Assembly (NCBI GenBank): GCA_032622095.1
Contig: CP136062.1
Span: 132,573,282-132,637,281 of the forward strand
Source of the DNA: Siphonodentalium dalli
Taxonomy: Eukaryota > Mollusca > Scaphopoda > Gadilida > Siphonodentaliidae
DNA: 64,000 bases
Reading direction: 5' to 3'
Shown piece after piece: positions 3,588-60,190 of the stretch. Both the position numbers and the translations under genes were made by a program. Each line of letters opens with the position of its first letter. Position 1 is the first letter of the stretch. The notes under the pieces are model-generated. The model saw only the letters and a program-made list of their open reading frames with translations. It had not been told where the DNA came from and ran no database searches.

Positions 3588-4106
3588 CTGTAAAGTTTCA
3601 AAGCAATTCTCCAATAAATGTGGGCTGTAGGTTGTGCTGATGGATTCACATTTGAAATCCAAGATGGCTGCTGGTGGCCATGTTTGTTTTGAACAAATTT
3701 CGGGGAAAAAGGGAGGCTCCCTTTCTTGAGGTCACCCCGAAGATCCATATGAAGTTTGGTGACGACTAGAAGAGAAATGTGACCTGTAAGATGTGTTAAA
3801 GGATTTAGTCATATAAAGAGTAAAATCCAAGATGGCCGCTGGCAGCCATGTTTTTTTTACAGAATTCGGGAAAAAATGGTAGGCACCCATCGAGAGATCA
3901 CACCGAGGATTCACATGAAGTTTGGTGATGATCGGATGAGGGATAAGCTCTGTAGGGTGTGCTAAAGGATTTAGTGATGCACAGAGTAAAATCAAGATGG
4001 CTGCCAGTGGCCATATTTTTCATCAATAATCATTCAAGTTACAGCTCCCATCTAGAGGTGATCCTAGACCCATATACCGAATATCGTTGAAATCGGTCAA
4101 AGTTTG
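3588..4106. repeat. Family H tandem-unit element, copy 1
   Basis: About three degenerate units of roughly 155-165 bp. Each carries AAATCCAAGATGGC, a purine/pyrimidine palindrome, GGCCATGTTTTT, and a CATATGAAGTTTGGTGA segment. No coding potential. Confidence 0.8.

Positions 4107-9292: not shown

Positions 9293-9344
<52 letters not shown>
9293..9344. repeat. Homopolymer G tract, 52 nt
   Basis: 52 consecutive G. It is absent from the paralogous N copy near 19650-19800. The true length may be uncertain in an assembly. Confidence 0.9.
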
Positions 9345-13303: not shown

Positions 13304-13704
13304 GTTTTCAATTTTCAATTACAAAAACTAACAACAAAGTCTATCTATTTTCCATTTTTATTAGTGGTTATGGTATTATATAGAGGATCTCTAATGAGTC
13401 GCAATTCTATATAAATTGTATAGAATTGCAATGAATTTGAGATATATTTTATCACATTTTAGCAAGGAAAAACGATCTTGAAATGGCTGGAGTTAAACAA
13501 GAAATTAATATATATTTCCTTTTCACAACAAAGAGGAATTAAAGACACCTTCAACAAAAAATATAGCTCCATTTTGAATGTGTCTTTTCATGTTGACAAC
13601 TTTGTTCAACCTCCCATGTTTATCTCACAGTCAACACTGAATATTATAACCCAACACAAAATTGAATATCAAAATTATATTCTAATTAGGCAAAAATAAA
13701 AGAG
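13304..13704. other. Unassigned sequence
   Basis: AT-rich. The 73-codon plus frame at 13478-13699 has no recognised signature. Confidence 0.4.
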
Positions 13705-13780
13705 ACCTGTGTTTCTGGTGACCCGCTCGCCCCTATTCTGGCGCCCCCAACCTTTTTCATTTTATTGATTTTGCAAAATT
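13705..13780 (+). repeat. Repeat X, left copy
   Basis: CTGTGTTTCTGGTGAC, a GC-rich CGCCCCTATT stretch and TTTTCATTTTATTGA. The inverted counterpart at 17410-17505 lies just beyond the Helitron-like array, so X flanks the array as an inverted pair. Confidence 0.6.
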
Positions 13781-13988
13781 AGTATGCATCCGATTTTATT
13801 TTCCTGTAAACTGATTCATTTCCGAAAAAATGGACACATCGCGGGTACTGATAAACGGAAATTATACCACACTTCAGTTAGGTCACAGCTGAATCAAATT
13901 AATTTTTTCATGTTGTTTCAATAAAACAATAGATTACACTACATGTATAATCTAATATATGTACTTAGTTTTATTCTTTTATAGTACA

Positions 13989-14701
13989 CTAGCAGGTTAG
14001 CCCGGCATGGCGTGGTTCGTCTCATGGCTTTGTTCGAAAAAGCAATTGCAACAGCTTCCGAGACACGTATGCTGCATCTAGGTGTAAAATTTCGTCGAAA
14101 TCCGCCAGTTTTACCCGAATTGACCTTGAATTGATCATTTTCAAGGTCAAGGTCAGGGTCACAAATTTAACCCGTCCATGACACTTCCCGCACAAAAGTA
14201 CCCATAGGTAGCAAGTTTGAGCTCAATCGGTTCGAGTCTATAAAGGACACACACATATATATCATTTGTGGGTACCCGTTTCAAGGTGAAGATCACCTCG
14301 GGCGGAAAAACTGACCCGATGAAAATCTCCCCCCGTTCCTAGGAAACCCTAAGTATGTAAGAATCATACAAATCGCTCATGTCTGGATACAGTCACGCTC
14401 ACAGCCCCCGGACCCAGACGTAAGAATGACATTACACGCATACGCTCTTTATCAACGACACTGCAGATACGAACGCTCTTTAACTATCAACGTGATTAAC
14501 CCCACAGTGCTGTTTTTTGTGACTGGGAGTGGAGAATGGGTGCTGGGAGCTTCTCCAAAATGCCGCGACGAACATTCCCGTGGGTTTTTACCCTTAGATA
14601 GGAAGTTTGGTCTCAATCGGTTCAGCCGTTTTCGATTGATTATATATATATATATATATATACGCACATATATATACAGAAGTCTCAAATTATATAGTAG
14701 A
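13989..14701 (-). mobile_element. Helitron-like element I-a
   Basis: On the minus strand the unit begins TCTACTATATAATTTGAGAC and ends in CTAG at 13992-13989, followed by host T, as Helitrons insert between A and T. The 3' hairpin is degraded in this copy. The interior carries AAGTTTGAGCTCAATCGGTT-type segments and a (TA)n run at 14640-14662. No Rep/helicase coding sequence, hence non-autonomous. Confidence 0.65.
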
Positions 14702-15497
14702 CTAGCAGATTAGCCCGCCACTGGCGGCAATCGTCAGCAACATGACAATTTTTATTTTTTAAATTATTTTTTTAATTTAATTTTTTGTTTTTCAATGAGT
14801 TAATTATGCCTTTTTAATTTACTGGCTTTTTAAATTATTTTTTTTAATTAATTTTTTAATTTAATTTTTTGTTTTTCAATGAGTTAATTGTGCCTTTTTA
14901 ATTTTCTAATTTAATTTTTTGGTTTTCAATTTTACTCGATTTGACCTTGAATTGATCATTTTCAAGGTCAAGGTCAGGTCGGGTCACAATTTAACCTGTC
15001 CATGACACTTCCTGTGGGTAGCAAGTTTGAGCTCAATCGGTTCGAGTCTATAAAGGACACACTCATATATATCATTTGTGGGTACCCGTTTCAAGGTGAA
15101 GATCACCTCGGGCGGAAAAACTGACCCGATGAAAATCTCCCCCGTTCCGAGGAAGCCCTAAGTACGTAAGAATCACACAACACGCTCATGTCTGGATACA
15201 GTCACGCTCACGTGTGGACCCAGACGTAAGAATCACATTACACGCATACGCTCTTTATCAACGATACTGCCGATACGAAAGCTCTTTAACTATCAACGCG
15301 ATTAACCCCACAGTGCCGTTTTTTGTGACCGGGAGTGGAGAATGGGTTCTCGGAGCTTCTCCAAAATGCTGCGACAACGCGTCCCGTATGATTTTACCCT
15401 TAGATAGGAAGTTTGGTCTCAATCGGTCCAGGCGTTTTCGATTCTATAAAGTATATATATACACACATATATACGAAGTTTCAAAATATATAGTAGA
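14702..15497 (-). mobile_element. Helitron-like element I-b
   Basis: Head-to-tail with I-a. The plus-strand start CTAGCAGATTAGCCCGCCAC then TGGCGGC gives, on the minus strand, a CCGCC-AGT-GGCGG hairpin about nine bases before terminal CTAG. The opposite end is TCTACTATATATTTTGA. A T-rich segment at 14750-14935 is internally duplicated. Most of the interior matches I-a. Confidence 0.7.
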
Positions 15498-16531
15498 CTA
15501 GCAGGTTAGCCCGCCACTGGCGGCATTCGTCCCATGGCTTTGTTTCAGAAACATGACATTTTTGAATATGAATTTAATATTTTTTAAATTTAATATATTT
15601 TGTTTCTGAATTGTTTTTTATTGTTAATTTTTTTTAATTTTAAATTGTTTTAATTAAATTGTAAATTGTTTTAATTATTTTTTTTGTTTCTGGCGGAAAA
15701 ATTTACCCGTAGAAATCCCCCCTTCCTAGGAACGACAGACAACATTGCATTGAATTTAAAACAAACGCTTCCCGTCGGGAAATCTGTCTGCATAATATTT
15801 CGAGTCTGCCGTACCCGTCGTAATGTCGTGAAATCTCTCTGCATAATAGATAACATTGCATTGAATCTGTTGTTGGCATTCAGGGCTTCGGGTCGTTGTT
15901 GTTGGCATCACGGCTCCCCGAAAACTCTCACATTGCCGAAAACGTGTATTTAGTAATATCGTTGTTGTTGATATTTACGGCTTGGGGGCTATTTTCTTAT
16001 TTAGCAAGTTTGAGCTCAATCGGTTCGAGTCTATAAAGGACACACTCATATATATGACACTTCCCGTGGGTAGCAAGTTTGAGCTCAATCGGCATTCCCT
16101 GGAATTTCCTGTAGATTGGCAGATTCCAGTAGCTTTATAACGGTATATCTGGGGAGAAATCTGATGCTATATTCGTGATTATCTGGGATGATTTCGGTAT
16201 ATAACTATATACTGTAAAAACAAAGCGCGCCATCCGTGCTCGCAGGGTTGGTCAGAAACAAATGTTTTTTAAATTTAATGTATGTTCCGTATATCTCTCT
16301 GCAGATGCAAATAACGTTGAATGGCAAACAGACGCTCTTTATAGAGATGCGTCAAAAACAAACGCTCATTAAATAATCACTTGATTAACCCATGCCGTGT
16401 CTTTACGGTGATTTGAGATTGGAGAACGGGTCCTCTGAGCTTCTCTAAACCGCGACCACGGTCGTGTCGATGGGATTTGACACTTACATAGGAAGTTTGA
16501 GCTCAATCTGTACACGCGTTTTGCATTCTAT

Positions 16532-16573
<42 letters not shown>

Positions 16574-16599
16574 CGAAGTCTCAAAATATATAGTATAGA
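15498..16599 (-). mobile_element. Helitron-like element I-c
   Basis: Carries the canonical 3' hairpin and CTAG at its left boundary and TCTATACTATATATTTTGAG as the minus-strand 5' end. 15580-16599 is nearly identical to 45549-46580. An (AC)n run lies at 16537-16567. No helicase coding sequence. Confidence 0.7.
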
Positions 16600-17122
16600 C
16601 TAGCCGATGAGCCCGACGTTGTCCGGGCTATTCATCCGGGCTATTCAAAAACCAAATTTCAAGTCGTTAGCTCCACCCGTTTCCGAGATCTGGTCTGCGC
16701 ATGCGCGAAGCTGGCGTCGCACGGGCTCGGCGACCCGATAAAATTCGTATCCGGGGCAAGATACATTCACATACCAAATTTCAAGTCGATAGCTCCACCC
16801 GTTTCCGAGATCTCGTCTGTGCATGCGCGAAGCTGGCGTCGCACGAGATCGGCGACCCGATAAAATTCGTATCCTGGGCAAGATACATTCACATACCAAA
16901 TTTCAAGTCGATAGCTCCATCCGTTTCCGAGATCTCGTCTGCGCATGCGCTGCACGGGCGTCGCACGGGCTCGCCAATATGACAACGTCCACCGCCTGGT
17001 CAAACTACACACACGTACCAAGTTTCGTCCCGATCGGTCGAGAATCGTAGATTTGTATCAATGACAAACATACAGACAGACAGACAAACAAACAGACAGA
17101 GGTCTTCAAAATATATATGAGA
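16600..17122 (-). mobile_element. Helitron-like element I-d
   Basis: CTAG at 16600 is followed by a diverged terminal region. The right end on the minus strand reads TCTCATATATATTTTGAAGA and then repeated CTGT/GTTT. A TC start followed by a CTGTCTGT stretch resembles lepidopteran Lep1-type Helitrons. Most of the interior is a 122-bp tandem. Confidence 0.65.
16652..16985. repeat. 122-bp tandem repeat
   Basis: The CCAAATTTCAAGTCG start recurs at 16652, 16774 and 16896, exactly 122 bp apart, giving about 2.7 copies. Each has CCGTTTCCGAGATC and a GCATGCGC core. The open frames through it on both strands are repeat artefacts. Confidence 0.9.
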
Positions 17123-17404
17123 CTAGCAGGTTTAATAGCCCACCACTGGCGGCGTTCGTCAGAAACATGACAATTTTTTATTTTTTTAATTTCAAATTTT
17201 TTTAATTAATTTTTTACCCGATTTGACCTTGAATTGATCATTTTCAAGGTCAAGGTCAGGTCGGGGTCACAATTTAACCCGTCCACGACACTTCCCGTAG
17301 GTAGCAAGTTTGAGCTCAATCAGTTCGAGTCTATAAAGGACACACACATATATATCATTTGTGGGTACCCGTTTCAAGATGAAGATCACCTAGGGCGGAA
17401 AAAC
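17123..17404 (-). mobile_element. Helitron-like element I-e (truncated)
   Basis: Starts with CTAGCAGGTTTAATAGCCCA and the CCACTGGCGGC hairpin. It repeats the TGACCTTGA...TCAAGGTCA block and CAAGTTTGAGCTCAATCAG, then ends without a TC terminus where repeat X begins. Confidence 0.65.
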
Positions 17405-17409
17405 TGACC

Positions 17410-17505
17410 ATATTTATTTTCAAAAAAGTTGACAATAAAATAAAATGAAAAGTCACCCGCCCGCCCCTATTTTTTTCTTGCATGTCACCAGAAACACAGA
17501 TGTAT
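17410..17505 (-). repeat. Repeat X, right inverted copy
   Basis: AAAATAAAATGAAAAGTCAC, then CGCCCGCCCC and GTCACCAGAAACACAG. Inverse of 13705-13780 with about 20 extra bases inside. Confidence 0.6.
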
Positions 17506-17530
17506 ATTGTTTTGGCATTAACATAATAAT

Positions 17531-22498: not shown

Positions 22499-23196
22499 TT
22501 AACCCTTTCAGTGCCAAGTCCGATTTTTGTATCAACCCATATTTCCTTGATCATTTTTCAAATTTATTGATTATAATAATGTGATACATTGATGAAAAGA
22601 GCTCTCATAATACTCTTATTTATGTGGGCAGTAGCCTCTATACGGGCGCCTGTGGCGCATAAGATACTATGGGTGGCGGGATGGGGGGTGGCTGGGCTCT
22701 CATAATACTCTTATTTATGTGGGCAGTAGCCTCTATACAGGCGCCTGTGGCGCATAAGATACTATGGGTGGCGGGATGGGGGGTGGGTGGGCTCTCATAA
22801 TACTCTTATTTATGTGGGCAGTAGCCTCTATATGGGCGCCTGTTGCGCATAAGATACTATGGGTGGCGGGATGGGGGGTGGGTGGGCTCTCAAAATACTC
22901 TTATTTATATGGGCAGTAGCCTCTATATGGGCGCCTGTGGCGCATAAGATACTATGGGTGGCGGGATGGGGGGGGGTGGGCTCTCATAATACTCTTATTT
23001 ATGTGGGCAGTAGCTTCTATACGGGCGCCTGTGGCGCATAAGAGACTATGGGTGGCGGGATGGGGGGTGGCCGGGCTCTCATAATACTCTTATTTATGTG
23101 GGCAGTAGCCTCTATACGGGCGCCTGTGGCGCATAAGATACTATGGGTGGCGGGATGGGGGGTGGCTGGGCTCTCATAATACTCTGAAAGGGTTAA
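22499..23196. mobile_element. Family C piggyBac-like MITE carrying a minisatellite
   Basis: TTAA-CCCTTTCAGTGCCAAG at the left and TCTGAAAGGG-TTAA at the right. The first 100 bp match the compact copies at 41191 and 57045 up to GAAAAGAGCTCT. The expected right arm is replaced by a 95-bp tandem array. Confidence 0.9.
22601..23187. repeat. 95-bp G-rich minisatellite
   Basis: Unit starts at 22601, 22696, 22791, 22886, 22980, 23075 and 23170, so six full units and a partial one. Each has GTGGGCAGTAGCCTCTATA, GGGCGCCTGTGGCGC and a G-rich block with four or more G3 runs. 95 is not a multiple of three and frames shift between units, so it is not a protein repeat. Confidence 0.95.

Positions 23197-37859: not shown

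Positions 37860-37938
<79 letters not shown>
37860..37938. repeat. Homopolymer G tract, 79 nt
   Basis: 79 consecutive G. The poly-proline frame on the minus strand across it is an artefact. Confidence 0.9.
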
Positions 37939-43370: not shown

Positions 43371-45061
43371 CAAGTCTGAGTTTAGTGTGCCTGTCATTTG
43401 CAGAATGAGGTCCCCAGAGGGTGAATTTAATGATGCTATCTATCACACACAGTGGGCTAGCATCACCAAATTCACCCTCTGGGGACCTCATTCTGTTTGT
43501 CCTCATGTCTGCTATGGGAGACATGGACACGGATTGAAGTTCCCAAATGGCGAATATTGAGATGTACACCCATTGGGTACCACGATTATGCAGTGTGTCG
43601 TCTGCCAGTTTGGGGATATAGAGAAACTAAACTAAATGAAAGTGTCAATGACACTGTAGCTTAACTTAGGTAGGGGAATAATTTAATGGTTGACAGTAAA
43701 TGGAGGAATAGGAAAGGTCACTGCTAATTGAATGTCTAAGTAAGACAAGATGTACATGTCAATATCAACATTCATGACAAGTTTTATAATCATCGGATCA
43801 GGGATGAGGTGATTATGGTGTGCCAAAGGATTTAGTGATGCAAAGAGTAAATTCTAAAATGGCCACCGGCAGCAATGTTTTATTCCATATTACCTCAAAA
43901 TGACTCATTCCCATCTATGTACATGTCAATGTAAACAGTCTTTACAAATCTCATAATGATCTGACCAAAGGTAAGACCTGTAGCCTGTGCCAAAGGATTT
44001 AGTCATGCAAAGAGTAAAATCCAAGATGCTGCTGGCGGCCATGTTTTTTGGCCGAATGACCCATAAAGGACTCGTTCCCATCTACATGTCATTGTTAACA
44101 TCCATAACACATTTCATGATCAGACGAACAGTACGACCTGTAGCCCGCGCCAATGGATTGATTTTTAAATCCAAGATGGCCACCAGTGGCCATGTTTTTT
44201 GGCCAAATGACCCCAAAATGACTCGTTCCCATCTACATGACAATGTCAACATTCATGACAAATTTCATAAAGATTAGACCAAAGGTACGACCTGTAGCCC
44301 GCGCCAAAGGATTTAGTCATGCAAAGAGTAAAATCCAAGATGGCTGCTGGTGGCCATGTTTTTCGGCCAAACGACCCCAAAATGACTCATTCCCATCTAC
44401 ATGTCATTTTTAATATCCATGACAAATTTCATGAATTTCCGATTAAAGCTACGACCTGTAGCCCTCGCCAAAGGATTTAGTCATGCAAAGAGTAAAATCC
44501 AAGATGGCTGCTGGCGGCCATGTTTTTTGGCCAAACGACCCCAAAATGACTCGTTCCCATCTACATGTCAATACTAACATCCATGACAAATTTCATGATG
44601 ATCAGACGAACAGTAGGACCTGTAGCCCGCGCCAATGGATTGAATTTTAAAATCCAAAATGGCCGCCAGCGGCCATGTTTTTTAGCCGAATGACCCCAAA
44701 ATGACTCGTTCCCATCTACATGTCAATGTCAACATTCATGACAAATTTCATAAAGATCAGACCAAAGGTACGACCTGTAGCCTGCGCCAAAGGAAATTGT
44801 TGACGGACACACGCACGATAGATGCCAAACCATGGCAATAGCTCAAACTTACAAAGTAAGTTGAGCTAAAAATAGAATATATGTGAAGAAGTTTCTATAG
44901 AAATTTGATAATAAAGAAACTTTCCAGAGAAGATGAGGTCTAAGCAGAATGAGGTCCCCAGAGGGTGAATTTAGTGATGCTAACTTTGTGGGATAGCATC
45001 ACCAAATTCACCCTCTGGGGACCTCATTGTGCAAATGACAGGCACACTAAACTCAGGCTTG
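43371..45061. mobile_element. Family G hAT-like element carrying an H array
   Basis: The left end CAAGTCTGAGTTTAGTGTGC and right end GCACACTAAACTCAGGCTTG are nearly perfect inverted repeats that share a subfamily-specific sequence, so they belong to one element of 1.69 kb. Each arm has the inner GAATTT...AAATTC hairpin. The H array at 43634-44870 occupies the interior. No clear 8-bp duplication at the edges. Confidence 0.75.
43634..44870. repeat. Family H tandem-unit element, copy 3
   Basis: AAATGAAAGTGTCAATGACA lead-in and CAAAGTAAGTTGAGCTAAA close. GGCCATG recurs at 44037, 44188, 44352, 44516 and 44671, giving spacings of 151, 164, 164 and 155 bp. It is the most regular H array of the window. 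Confidence 0.85.
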
Positions 45062-45227: not shown

Positions 45228-46580
45228 AGAGCTGGATTGTTGCCCGATCCATACCCCACACAGGCAGACCAACTCCCCGATAGCGGGCTGTAGCCCACCC
45301 CCACGCCCAAGGTAATTTGTGGGTACCCGTTTCAAGGTGAAGGTCCCTCAGGTGGATAAACTGACCCGACGAAAATCTCCCCCGTCCCTTGGAAGCCCTA
45401 AGTAGGAAATTTCGTCTCGATATCCCGAGTTTCCAAGACGGTCGATTGAGCCGTATTTATACTCGTGTATATAAACGCTCTTTAACAACGACACCGCAGA
45501 TACAAACGCTCTTTAATCATTAACCTCATTAACCCATCAATTCAAACGTTTTTTAAATTTAATATATTTTGTTTCTGAATTGTTTTTTTATTGTTAATTT
45601 TTTTTAATTTTAAATTGTTTTAATTAAATTGTAAATTGTTTTAATTAATTTTTTTGTTTGTGGCGGAAAAATTTACCCGTAGAAATCCCCCCTTCCTAGG
45701 AATGACAGACAACGCATTCTTTGTTTCGTGAAATCTCTCTACGATAACATTGCATTGAATTTAAAACAAACGCTTCCCGTTGGGAAATCTGTCTGCATAA
45801 TATTTTGAGTCTGCCGTACCCGTCGTAATGTCGTGAAATCTCTCTGCATAATAGATAACATTGCATTGAATCTGTTGTTGGCATTTAGGGCTTCGGGTCG
45901 TTGTTGTTGGCATCACGGCTCCCCGAAAACTCTCACATTGCCGAAAACGTGTATTTAGTAATATCGTTGTTGTTGATATTTACGGCTTGGGGGCTATTTT
46001 CTTATTTAGCAAGTTTGAGCTCAATCGGTTCGAGTCTATAAAGGACACACTCATATATATGACACTTCCCGTGGGTAGCAAGTTTGAGCTCAATCGGCAT
46101 TCCCTGGAATTTCCCGTAGATTGGCAGATTCCAGTAGCTTTATAACGGTATATCTGGGGAGAAATCTGATGCTATATTCGTGATTATCTGGGATGATTTC
46201 GGTATATAACTATATACTGTAAAAACAAAGCGCGCCATCCGTGCTCGCAGGGTTGGTCAGAAACAAATGTTTTCTAAATTTAATGTATGTTCCGTATATC
46301 TCTCTGCAGATGCAAATAACGTTGAATGGCAAACAGACGCTCTTTATAGAGATGCGTCAAAAACAAACGCTCATTAAATAATCACTTGATTAACCCACGC
46401 CGTGCCTTTGCGGTGATTTGAGATTGGAGAACAGGTGCTCTGAGCTTCTCTAAACCGCGACCACGGTCGTGTCGGTGGGATTTGACACTTACATAGGAAG
46501 TTTGAGCTCAATCTGTACACGCGTTTTGGATTCTATGAAGTACACACACATATACGAAGTCTCAAAATATATAGTATAGA
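45228..46580 (-). mobile_element. Helitron-like element I-f
   Basis: On the minus strand the 5' end is A-TCTATACTATATATTTTGAG at 46580, with host A before TC as expected for Helitrons. 45549-46580 is nearly identical to 15580-16599, apart from an extra 30 bp or so near 45720-45750 and a shorter AC run. The left part resembles 14270-14500. The left (3') terminus with hairpin and CTAG is not recognisable. Confidence 0.7.
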
Positions 46581-59507: not shown

Positions 59508-60190
59508 ACAAGAGAGGGACTCTCATCCATTTCATACCTCTTGTTGCATCTGGCCTAGTGTGGGCATATATATAACCTATGACTGATATACTATGACAGA
59601 TGGGCCCAAAAATCAGCATTTTCATATAAACATAAGATGAATAACTATAGAACGAAAAACCTAAACAAAATGATTAAACATGCCATTGGATGTCCTCATA
59701 GTGGGGAACATCCAAACCACATTTCACTGAGATCTGAGAATTAATGTTCATGTTATGACCTGAACAAACATTGGAGTGACCAAAAAGCCAACATTTCCAA
59801 ATAAATGAAGATGAATAACCCTAGAAAGGAAAATCTGAACAAAACAATGGAACCCTCTGTTAAATGGACTCATAGTCGTGAACATCCAAACCCAATTTCA
59901 TTGAGATCTGAGCAAAATTGTTGAAGTTAGGACGTGAACAGACATCAGACGGACCAAAAAGCCACAATTCCAATAAACAAAGATGAATAACTCTAGAATG
60001 GAAAATCAGACCAAATGATGGAACCCTTTATTGTATCTCCTCATAGCAGTGAACATCAACACCAAATTTCATTGAGATCCGAGCAGTTATGACATGAACA
60101 GACATAGGACGTACATAGGCATGCACGCCCAGACACTGTGCAAAACATTATACCCCCCTTTATTTAAAAAAAAGATGGTATAATTATGAT
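59508..60190. repeat. Family J tandem-unit element, copy 2
   Basis: ACAAGAGAGGGACTCTC start, TGTGGGCATATATATAACC, then three units with AAGATGAATAACTCTAGAA-like and TTTCATTGAGATC segments. The end is GCAAAACATTATACCCCCC...GGTATAATTA. Confidence 0.8.

Follow-up and report, generated by a model that had tools for sequence, protein, structure and literature searches.

Head-to-tail Helitrons without any host DNA between them raise the question of whether such an array is one transposon copied repeatedly in place or several transposons that were inserted separately. An array of this kind was found on the minus strand of a 64,000-nt stretch of DNA from the mollusk Siphonodentalium dalli, herein referred to as the window (C2:132573282-132637281, in a 2.23-Gb genome of nine contigs), where five Helitron units occupy positions 17409-13989. 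This array is probably a chain of separate Helitron insertions and not a concatemer of one element, in a family that appears to insert also inside its own 5' end, at TCTA/TACTATATAT (here and below, a slash marks a joint or an insertion point). In the genome as a whole, the data suggest that chains arise mostly by new copies landing at the front of an old one, either directly adjacent to it or slightly within it, and not by one copy being spun off over and over. A further proposal, towards which the balance tips only slightly, is that the 5' terminus is a copy of the preferred target and hence the element's own best landing site; repeated self-insertion would then build one-orientation chains, with displaced remnants recording which families were inserted and in what order.

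The joints in the window read CTAG/TC exactly at 17123/17122, 16600/16599, 15498/15497, and 14702/14701. The terminal CTAG of the array stops at 13989, and host TGTACTATAAAA is next. Thus, the five-unit head-to-tail order and the CTAG/TC boundaries without host DNA, both proposed by an earlier sequence-only reading, were confirmed, except that unit 1 is a 3' portion without its 5' end, which leaves units 2 to 5 as the complete ones. The same reading had taken all boundaries to be CTAG/TCTACTATATA, which is present at just two of the four. The boundaries are CTAG/TCTCATATATA at 17122 (unit 2), CTAG/TCTATACTATATA at 16599 (unit 3), CTAG/TCTACTATATATTTT at 15497, and CTAG/TCTACTATATAATTT at 14701.

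Three 5'-end types were found among the window units. Among neighbours, the resemblance is closest between units 4 and 5, with 87% identity over 600 bp; units 3 and 4 align partially, and no alignment was found for units 1 and 2 or units 2 and 3. Because of the three end types and this low identity between neighbours, the five units represent different elements; of the internal differences noticed earlier, the 122-bp tandem does lie inside unit 2. Five tandem copies of one element were rejected as a description of the array, since the units differ.

A search of the genome for the 27-base 3' end gave 5,074 exact matches, and the reversed sequence used as a control gave none. When the first 100 matches in the list are taken, 39 of the 99 adjacent pairs lie within 8 kb, compared with about 1.8% expected by chance; 38 of these close pairs are on the same strand and one is on opposite strands. 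In total, 3,056 exact junctions were counted, 1,323 of them without TCTA (GCTAACCTGCTAG/TACTATATATTTTGAG), 1,478 with one, and 255 with two. The head-to-tail arrangement, described earlier as seldom seen this plainly, is common in this genome.

For analysis of the front ends, the first 100 listed exact 5' cores were tabulated (all on C1, not hand-picked, types read by eye). Eighty of them stand directly after a Helitron 3' end and 20 after other DNA, one of these being an inverted Helitron copy. By our own parse, a TC-starting prefix is present at all 20 host-flanked 5' ends (that of L041 is longer and odd), and the base before the insert is A at 19 of these 20 boundaries. Exceptions to the A/T insertion site, reading G/T, were found at L021 and L033. 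The dissected units end with CTAG, with few mutated exceptions. A 3' hairpin is predicted to fold in units 2, 3, and 4, is weak in unit 1, and is lost in unit 5; its strength is unremarkable, with 10, 35, and 19 of 200 shuffles folding as well for units 2, 3, and 4, respectively. The elements are canonical Helitrons, with 5' TC, a 3' hairpin followed by CTAG, and A/T insertion without target duplication. The Helitron-type ends, the flanking A and T, and the conservation of CTAG and TC at isolated copies, all anticipated from the sequence, were thus borne out.

The TCTA footprint and the insertion target

In the table of 100 cores, 5' ends stripped of TCTA were found at 23 of the 80 junctions and at none of the 20 host boundaries (p = 0.006). 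Conversely, an extra prefix is present at 13 of 80 junctions vs. 13 of 20 host boundaries (p = 4e-5). Cores within one array are non-independent, so each array was also counted once: stripped ends were found in 15 of 42 arrays with a junction and in 0 of 19 with a host boundary (p = 0.003), extra prefixes in 11 of 42 and 12 of 19 (p = 0.01). The host case with the odd longer prefix (L041) was scored as extra, not as stripped. An early hand count (19/41 vs. 1/15 stripped) is superseded by these counts and by an automatic recount (see below). All four junctions in the window are unstripped, i.e., they keep the full 5' end.

The unit upstream was then considered, with criteria set beforehand, at 15 stripped and 15 unstripped isolated junctions read by eye; the unstripped set includes five unreadable and one ambiguous case, some units belong to other subfamilies, and L070 and L085 lie 1.4 kb away. 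The upstream unit bears an extra prefix at 8 of 14 readable stripped junctions and at 0 of 9 unstripped ones (p = 0.007, or p = 0.033 if the ambiguous unstripped case counts against). By our own reading, an extra prefix is also present on the first unit of 12 of the 13 arrays in which a stripped unit is present and the boundary with other DNA can be read. These are 7 of 8 arrays from the upstream test (all but L068) and 5 of 5 dissected arrays (L046, L047, two of C48, and L055); in L061 and L068, the "other DNA" at the array front is the inside of another Helitron. When the order of units was permuted, 3 unmatched stripped units were found vs. 7.9 expected (p = 0.006), and 2 vs. 4.8 (p = 0.036) in host-started arrays alone, with prefixes hand-coded in both cases.

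One pair of copies illustrates the exchange of prefixes. Over 1,126 bp, C48_197 matches C48_7412 at every base (100%); the former stands at a host site in a long interspersed nuclear element (LINE) with the prefix TCTATCTA, and the latter stands inside an array without a prefix. The unit upstream of C48_7412 has three TCTA, i.e., two plus one. In another case, TCTCA, the start of the unit-2 family, precedes a Rep element at C1:98249115, from which a downstream unit starting TATATATTTTGAAG was predicted at about 98240.7 kb. Past the next 3' end there, an other-family unit was found, followed by CTAG/TATATATATATTTTGAAGACC, which is 90% like unit 2 from the fifth base and has a longer TA run. The donor prediction was borne out in kind, although one unit farther away than expected and with a sequence that differs in detail, the intervening 7.2 kb being unread.

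The unoccupied state of the target was found at C1:48.35 Mb, where two insertions lie 543 bp apart in one LINE. When the flanks are joined, the reverse-transcriptase frame is open through both junctions, with NYRPISILPVFSK spanning the first and stops only in the outer flank. The joined query gave 46 genome rows, 23 of which cover it whole (1-855) and 2 more cover both junctions. In the three unoccupied rows that were aligned, both junctions are gapless and TCTA is absent; elsewhere in the aligned rows, a 36-nt difference and a 1-2-nt gap were found. The sites read GCTAA/TAGG and AGTTA/TATTAT, and therefore TCTATCTA and TCTATCTATCTA, found before the inserts, arrived with the inserts. A third insertion case, L021, lies within a 23-bp tandem repeat, at G/T. 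No target duplications, which the sequence-only reading had named as grounds for refutation, were found at the empty sites examined, nor at the host repeat of the window as compared with its unoccupied copies.

A target matrix was assembled by combining 14 host 3' flanks with 18 preceding bases, leaving out L024x and L046 (flanks resembling Helitron ends) and using the flank of unoccupied copies for the second LINE site. It ranks TCTA/TACTATATAT 1st-3rd of 2,192-2,408 positions in four units. Five host flanks outside the matrix set, one of which starts with A and not T, are in the top 0.0-5.4% of the A/N sites of the window beyond the array. The host target is of the loose kind /TNNTATATA.

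Insertion 4 nt inside the family's own 5' end is thus shown by association, together with the target matrix. A new copy would be inserted at TCTA/TACTATATAT, 4 nt inside the 5' end of an old unit, stripping TCTA from the old unit and leaving TCTA in front of the new one; since the target is asymmetric, the new copy would have the same orientation. Stripped junctions would accordingly be products of insertion at TCTA/TACT. At unstripped junctions, including all four in the window, the new copy would have entered precisely at the end of a unit already present. The site would be either G/T, where CTAG meets the host T (in our view the commoner route), or A/TC. Long arrays may later grow or be shuffled by unequal exchange.

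Growth of the arrays

Several results weigh against self-insertion at TCTA/TACTATATAT as a full account. The matrix ranks A/TCTATACT poorly (163-324), which places the unstripped junctions outside the TCTA/TACTATATAT rule, and the left-one-out scores of the 14 flanks range from -8.6 to 9.0, so the target motif is loose. An automatic recount of earlier selected loci gave a weaker contrast (18/43 vs. 2/14, p = 0.11); L003 and L004 (the latter with one stripped junction) are outside this recount, as well as outside the array-dissection, neighbour-identity, and age counts. Strict accounting, with one TCTA for each unit, does not work: the excess is 0 to +3, a deficit of 1 was found in L055 (duplicated block), and some solo elements have two to four TCTA (L021, C48_197 at its LINE site, and L124/L142), so some extra prefix was also brought by some elements or by slippage. 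Three of the 39 neighbour pairs in dissected long arrays are 99.8% identical and three more are 97.7-97.9% identical, and therefore local amplification contributes there. No age gradient was found with a weak, sample-limited proxy: of the 26 stripped pairs, 20 were scored and the upstream unit is the younger in 8 of these; of the 43 other pairs, 32 were scored and it is the younger in 15. In the window, the best-copy identities of units 2 to 5 (99, 96, 88-89, and 91-93%) are not monotone.

Predictions for individual loci also often failed. Of ten array-front predictions, four matched (L029, L031, L032, and L034) and six missed (L026, L027, L028, L030, L033, and L035). Seven of the ten fronts (all but L032, L033, and L034) had a further unit upstream, accounting for five misses and two matches, and were therefore unfair tests. 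Six of nine supposed solos were in arrays (L037, L038, and L042-L045); among the three host-boundary solos, the predicted single TCTA was found in one (L040), L039 and L041 having more. Of the five donor predictions, one came out in kind (the TCTCA case), three failed (L139, L140, and L142, the last a solo with four TCTA), and that for L141 failed for the next unit. In the donor-test controls, host DNA followed in two of three (L144 and L146), in one case only past an additional short 3' end, and L145 was unread. No stripped partners were found for L041, 48159771, and 71980371.

The alternatives differ in which of these observations they reach. If the transposase overran the 3' end and laid down several copies of one element by rolling-circle replication, the joints would be exactly CTAG/TC, as found, and a passage of PMC4778049 describes circles with a CTAG/TC joint made by Helraiser; the 99.8% identical pairs of long arrays and exact spacings (e.g., 1,125 bp twice) also fit. 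However, the window units differ in type and size, and near-identical neighbours were found in 0 of 20 isolated pairs (10 with stripped and 10 with unstripped junctions, drawn from the 30 of the upstream test), the best full-length pair being 96.3% identical (L077) and the others partial or lower. The tandem amplification read earlier from the sequence is thus unsupported for the window and the isolated pairs, some being present in long arrays. Moreover, the 1,323 of 3,056 exact junctions without TCTA, and so without TC, are impossible from a CTAG/TC circle, and stripping is paired with a surplus prefix upstream. Concatemers are therefore improbable as the source of the arrays. Rather more credible, although still unlikely, is growth on the 3' side only, with each new element inserted between CTAG and the host T (G/T) and the downstream unit the younger. 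The base G before the insert at L033 and L021 shows G/T to be usable, unstripped junctions such as all four in the window are explained, the age test does not oppose it, and it is one of two readings of a maize pair in a passage of PMC2267711; but growth of this kind accounts neither for stripped 5' ends nor for a surplus prefix at the front of the array, next to the host.

Unequal crossing-over between homologous units could have built and shuffled the arrays. A LINE segment is duplicated between two arrays at C1:48.35 Mb, a two-unit block is repeated in L055, and periodic blocks were found at C1:49.03 Mb; these duplicated blocks, together with the near-identical pairs, indicate that some arrays have also grown through amplification or unequal exchange. 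Nevertheless, crossing-over requires pre-existing neighbours and leaves short mixed-family arrays and stripped ends unexplained, and as a general origin it has little to recommend it. Equally doubtful is the possibility that the TCTA differences are microsatellite slippage unrelated to insertion. (TCTA)n is slippage-prone and solos with two to four TCTA exist, but loss is confined to junctions (23/80 vs. 0/20), gain is concentrated at host boundaries, and a non-TCTA remnant (TCTCA) exists for which a fitting donor was found. Serial insertion beside or just inside existing front ends remains the preferred reading.

Some arrays have further structure. Junctions recur at exact 1,301-, 1,118-, and 3,721-bp spacing at C1:49027606-49043526, and this spacing and the two-unit block of L055 resemble satellite higher-order repeats. 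At L054 (C1:92589800-92596000), two Helitron arrays run in opposite directions from adjoining 5' ends, and the first bases of the plus-strand array are lost. The LINE duplicate at C1:48.35 Mb was considered as a pair of states before and after insertion and rejected, the flanking units not being the same.

Related elements and features of the window

Features are collected in Table 1. No open reading frame (ORF) of at least 150 aa (ATG/GTG/TTG to stop) was found in the whole window, in agreement with the absence of Rep noted earlier. Copies of the units were found elsewhere. Unit 2 has full-length copies up to 99% identical, unit 3 has copies up to 96% identical over nearly the whole unit and 98% over 859 bases, and unit 5 has copies with identity up to 91-93%. 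Unit 4 is 88-89% identical to units in L002-L004, its three best matches besides itself, in a search whose query spanned the unit 3/4 junction.

Table 1. Coordinates of the array units, their flanks, and related features (window positions unless a contig is given).
Feature	Position	Strand	Description
5' host flank	17410..17528	minus	Left part of the same miniature inverted-repeat transposable element (MITE)-like repeat as the 3' flank, shortened beside unit 1
Unit 1	17123..17409	minus	Helitron 3' portion, 5' end missing, ends CCGCCAGTGGTGGGCTATTAAACCTGCTAG
Unit 2	16600..17122	minus	Complete non-autonomous Helitron of another family, TCTCATATATATTTTGAAG ... GCCCGGACAACGTCGGGC-TCATCGG-CTAG, holds the 122-bp tandem
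122-bp tandem	16643..16973	minus	2.7 copies, inside unit 2
Unit 2 3' hairpin	16610..16629	minus	AGCCCG ... CGGGCT, predicted fold
Unit 3	15498..16599	minus	Complete non-autonomous Helitron, TCTATACTATATATTTTGAGACTTCG ... CCGCCAGTGGCGG-GCTAACCTG-CTAG
Unit 3 3' hairpin	15511..15523	minus	CCGCC-AGT-GGCGG, predicted fold
Unit 4	14702..15497	minus	Complete non-autonomous Helitron, TCTACTATATATTTTGAAAC ... CTAG
Unit 4 3' hairpin	14715..14727	minus	CCGCC-AGT-GGCGG, predicted fold
Unit 5	13989..14701	minus	Helitron, TCTACTATATAATTTGAG ... CTAG, 3' hairpin lost
3' host flank	13700..13988	minus	TGTACTATAAAA..., right part of a MITE-like repeat with inverted ends
Second separate relative	45315..46580	minus	Unit-3-like, 93% over 1,056 bp and then rearranged, 5' end CATA/TCTATACTATATA
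Array A	C1:13.715-13.7595 Mb		44.5 kb, holds an 8.67-kb unit with unit 2 end types

Six copies of the host repeat were compared. Four are unoccupied, reading GTAA/TGTACTATAAAA, and two bear another Helitron 3' end at the identical base. The repeat beside unit 1 lacks 32-58 bp; because the four unoccupied copies keep them, one deletion probably removed both this host DNA and the 5' part of unit 1. GTAA/TGTACTATAAAA with a Helitron 3' end at one base was found in three MITE-like copies (L092, L094, and the host repeat of the window), and this shared base is either a hot target or the mark of a Helitron-bearing repeat that spread.

At least 151 Helitron_like_N matches were found in the genome. 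The array A unit has a 1,614-codon open frame with Helitron_like_N, PIF1, Pif1 2B, and N-terminal STPR repeats. The second Rep/helicase element, L056 (C1:90.68 Mb), is an 8.45-kb unit that, like unit 3, starts TCTATACTATATATTTTGAGACTTCG and ends CCGCCAGTGGCGGGCTAACCTGCTAG; its copy is broken, since Helitron_like_N and PIF1 are in separate ORFs. These Rep/helicase elements share end types with units 2 (array A) and 3 (L056, both ends). Putative autonomous partners with shared ends, expected by the sequence-only reading, were therefore found, one with an intact frame. Both elements themselves sit within arrays. The Rep matches themselves are in places repeated along a single strand, with a spacing of about 8-16 kb, so elements that carry Rep may form arrays as well; such runs were found at C6:36914596/36925960/36934407 and C1:114628540/114638548, and further ones at C1:179793298/179805394/179817053 and C2:145183789/145199462.

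GLPHSHILI and KYVCKYINK, visible in P0002, are presumably the HUH and two-tyrosine Rep motifs. The 23-24-aa repeats at the transposase N-terminus are called STPR by Pfam (PF21107; E = 9e-15 in array A and 7e-12 in L056); the STPR-bearing frame of array A lies at C1:13741164-13746006, minus strand (L009/L008). Helentrons are distinguished by an added endonuclease domain and different termini. No endonuclease family was found among the Pfam matches of P0002, P0003, and the L056 ORFs, and Helentron identity was ruled out by the canonical termini together with the lack of this domain.

Other repeats were found in the window. Tandem repeats of 164-174 bp are located at 3655-4001, 43842-44794, and 59626-60085, the first two sharing a motif near AAATCCAAGATGGC, and 6.2 copies of a 95-bp tandem, 95% alike, are located at 22601-23185. 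Two G runs, of 79 and 52 nt, are located at 37860-37938 and 9293-9344, respectively.

Comparison with known Helitron arrays

Head-to-tail Helitrons are cited as support for rolling-circle transposition in a passage of PMC5876387. The tandem Helitrons of Myotis lucifugus (Pritham and Feschotte, 2007, as cited in PMC2267711) have perfect head-to-tail junctions, like those found here, and were read as tandem repeats, according to that passage, on the ground that no A is present between units; insertion at or just inside a 5' end likewise leaves no A. Tandem arrays in plant centromeres are said, in a passage of PMC5148889, to be truncated Helitron insertions, whereas the tandem arrays analyzed here are mixed and consist mostly of complete elements. 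Multiple termini produced by self-insertion or nesting are described for Fusarium FoHeli and a Metarhizium triple array (PMC5148889) and for nested maize Helitrons (PMC3288121, where multiple termini are derived from nested elements). These are few cases, the passages available give no footprint count or target match, and FoHelis are non-canonical.

Helraiser, a reconstructed bat Helitron active in human cells (passages of PMC4778049 and PMC5876387), is similar in its A/T insertion, its preference for AT-rich DNA, which is most marked 3' of the insert, and the AT-richness of its own 5' end close to the cleavage site (PMC4778049). This preference and the AT-rich 5' end make self-targeting plausible, although the passages of the two papers do not mention it. 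No description of self-targeting or target mimicry by a Helitron 5' end was found in the literature searched, which was without most subscription papers. If true, target mimicry would explain the orientation, mixed composition, and abundance of the arrays, might give the relative order of insertion events, and would provide a route from a dispersed transposon to a satellite-like array.

Among the closest known cases is a maize pair (2008, PMC2267711), in which, according to the passage available, different elements are joined CTAG/TC with no host base between them, as here. As alternatives to rolling-circle repeats, that passage names insertion at A-T (host A plus the 5' T) or at G-T after CTAG. 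Both kinds of explanation are stated in the maize and fungal (PMC5148889) passages, which leave the choice undecided. The 4-base footprint across thousands of junctions separates serial insertion from rolling-circle replication and favours serial insertion. Thus, where the maize passage deals with one pair and leaves its order open, the S. dalli genome offers thousands of junctions and a displaced 4-bp footprint, which points to insertion inside the 5' end.

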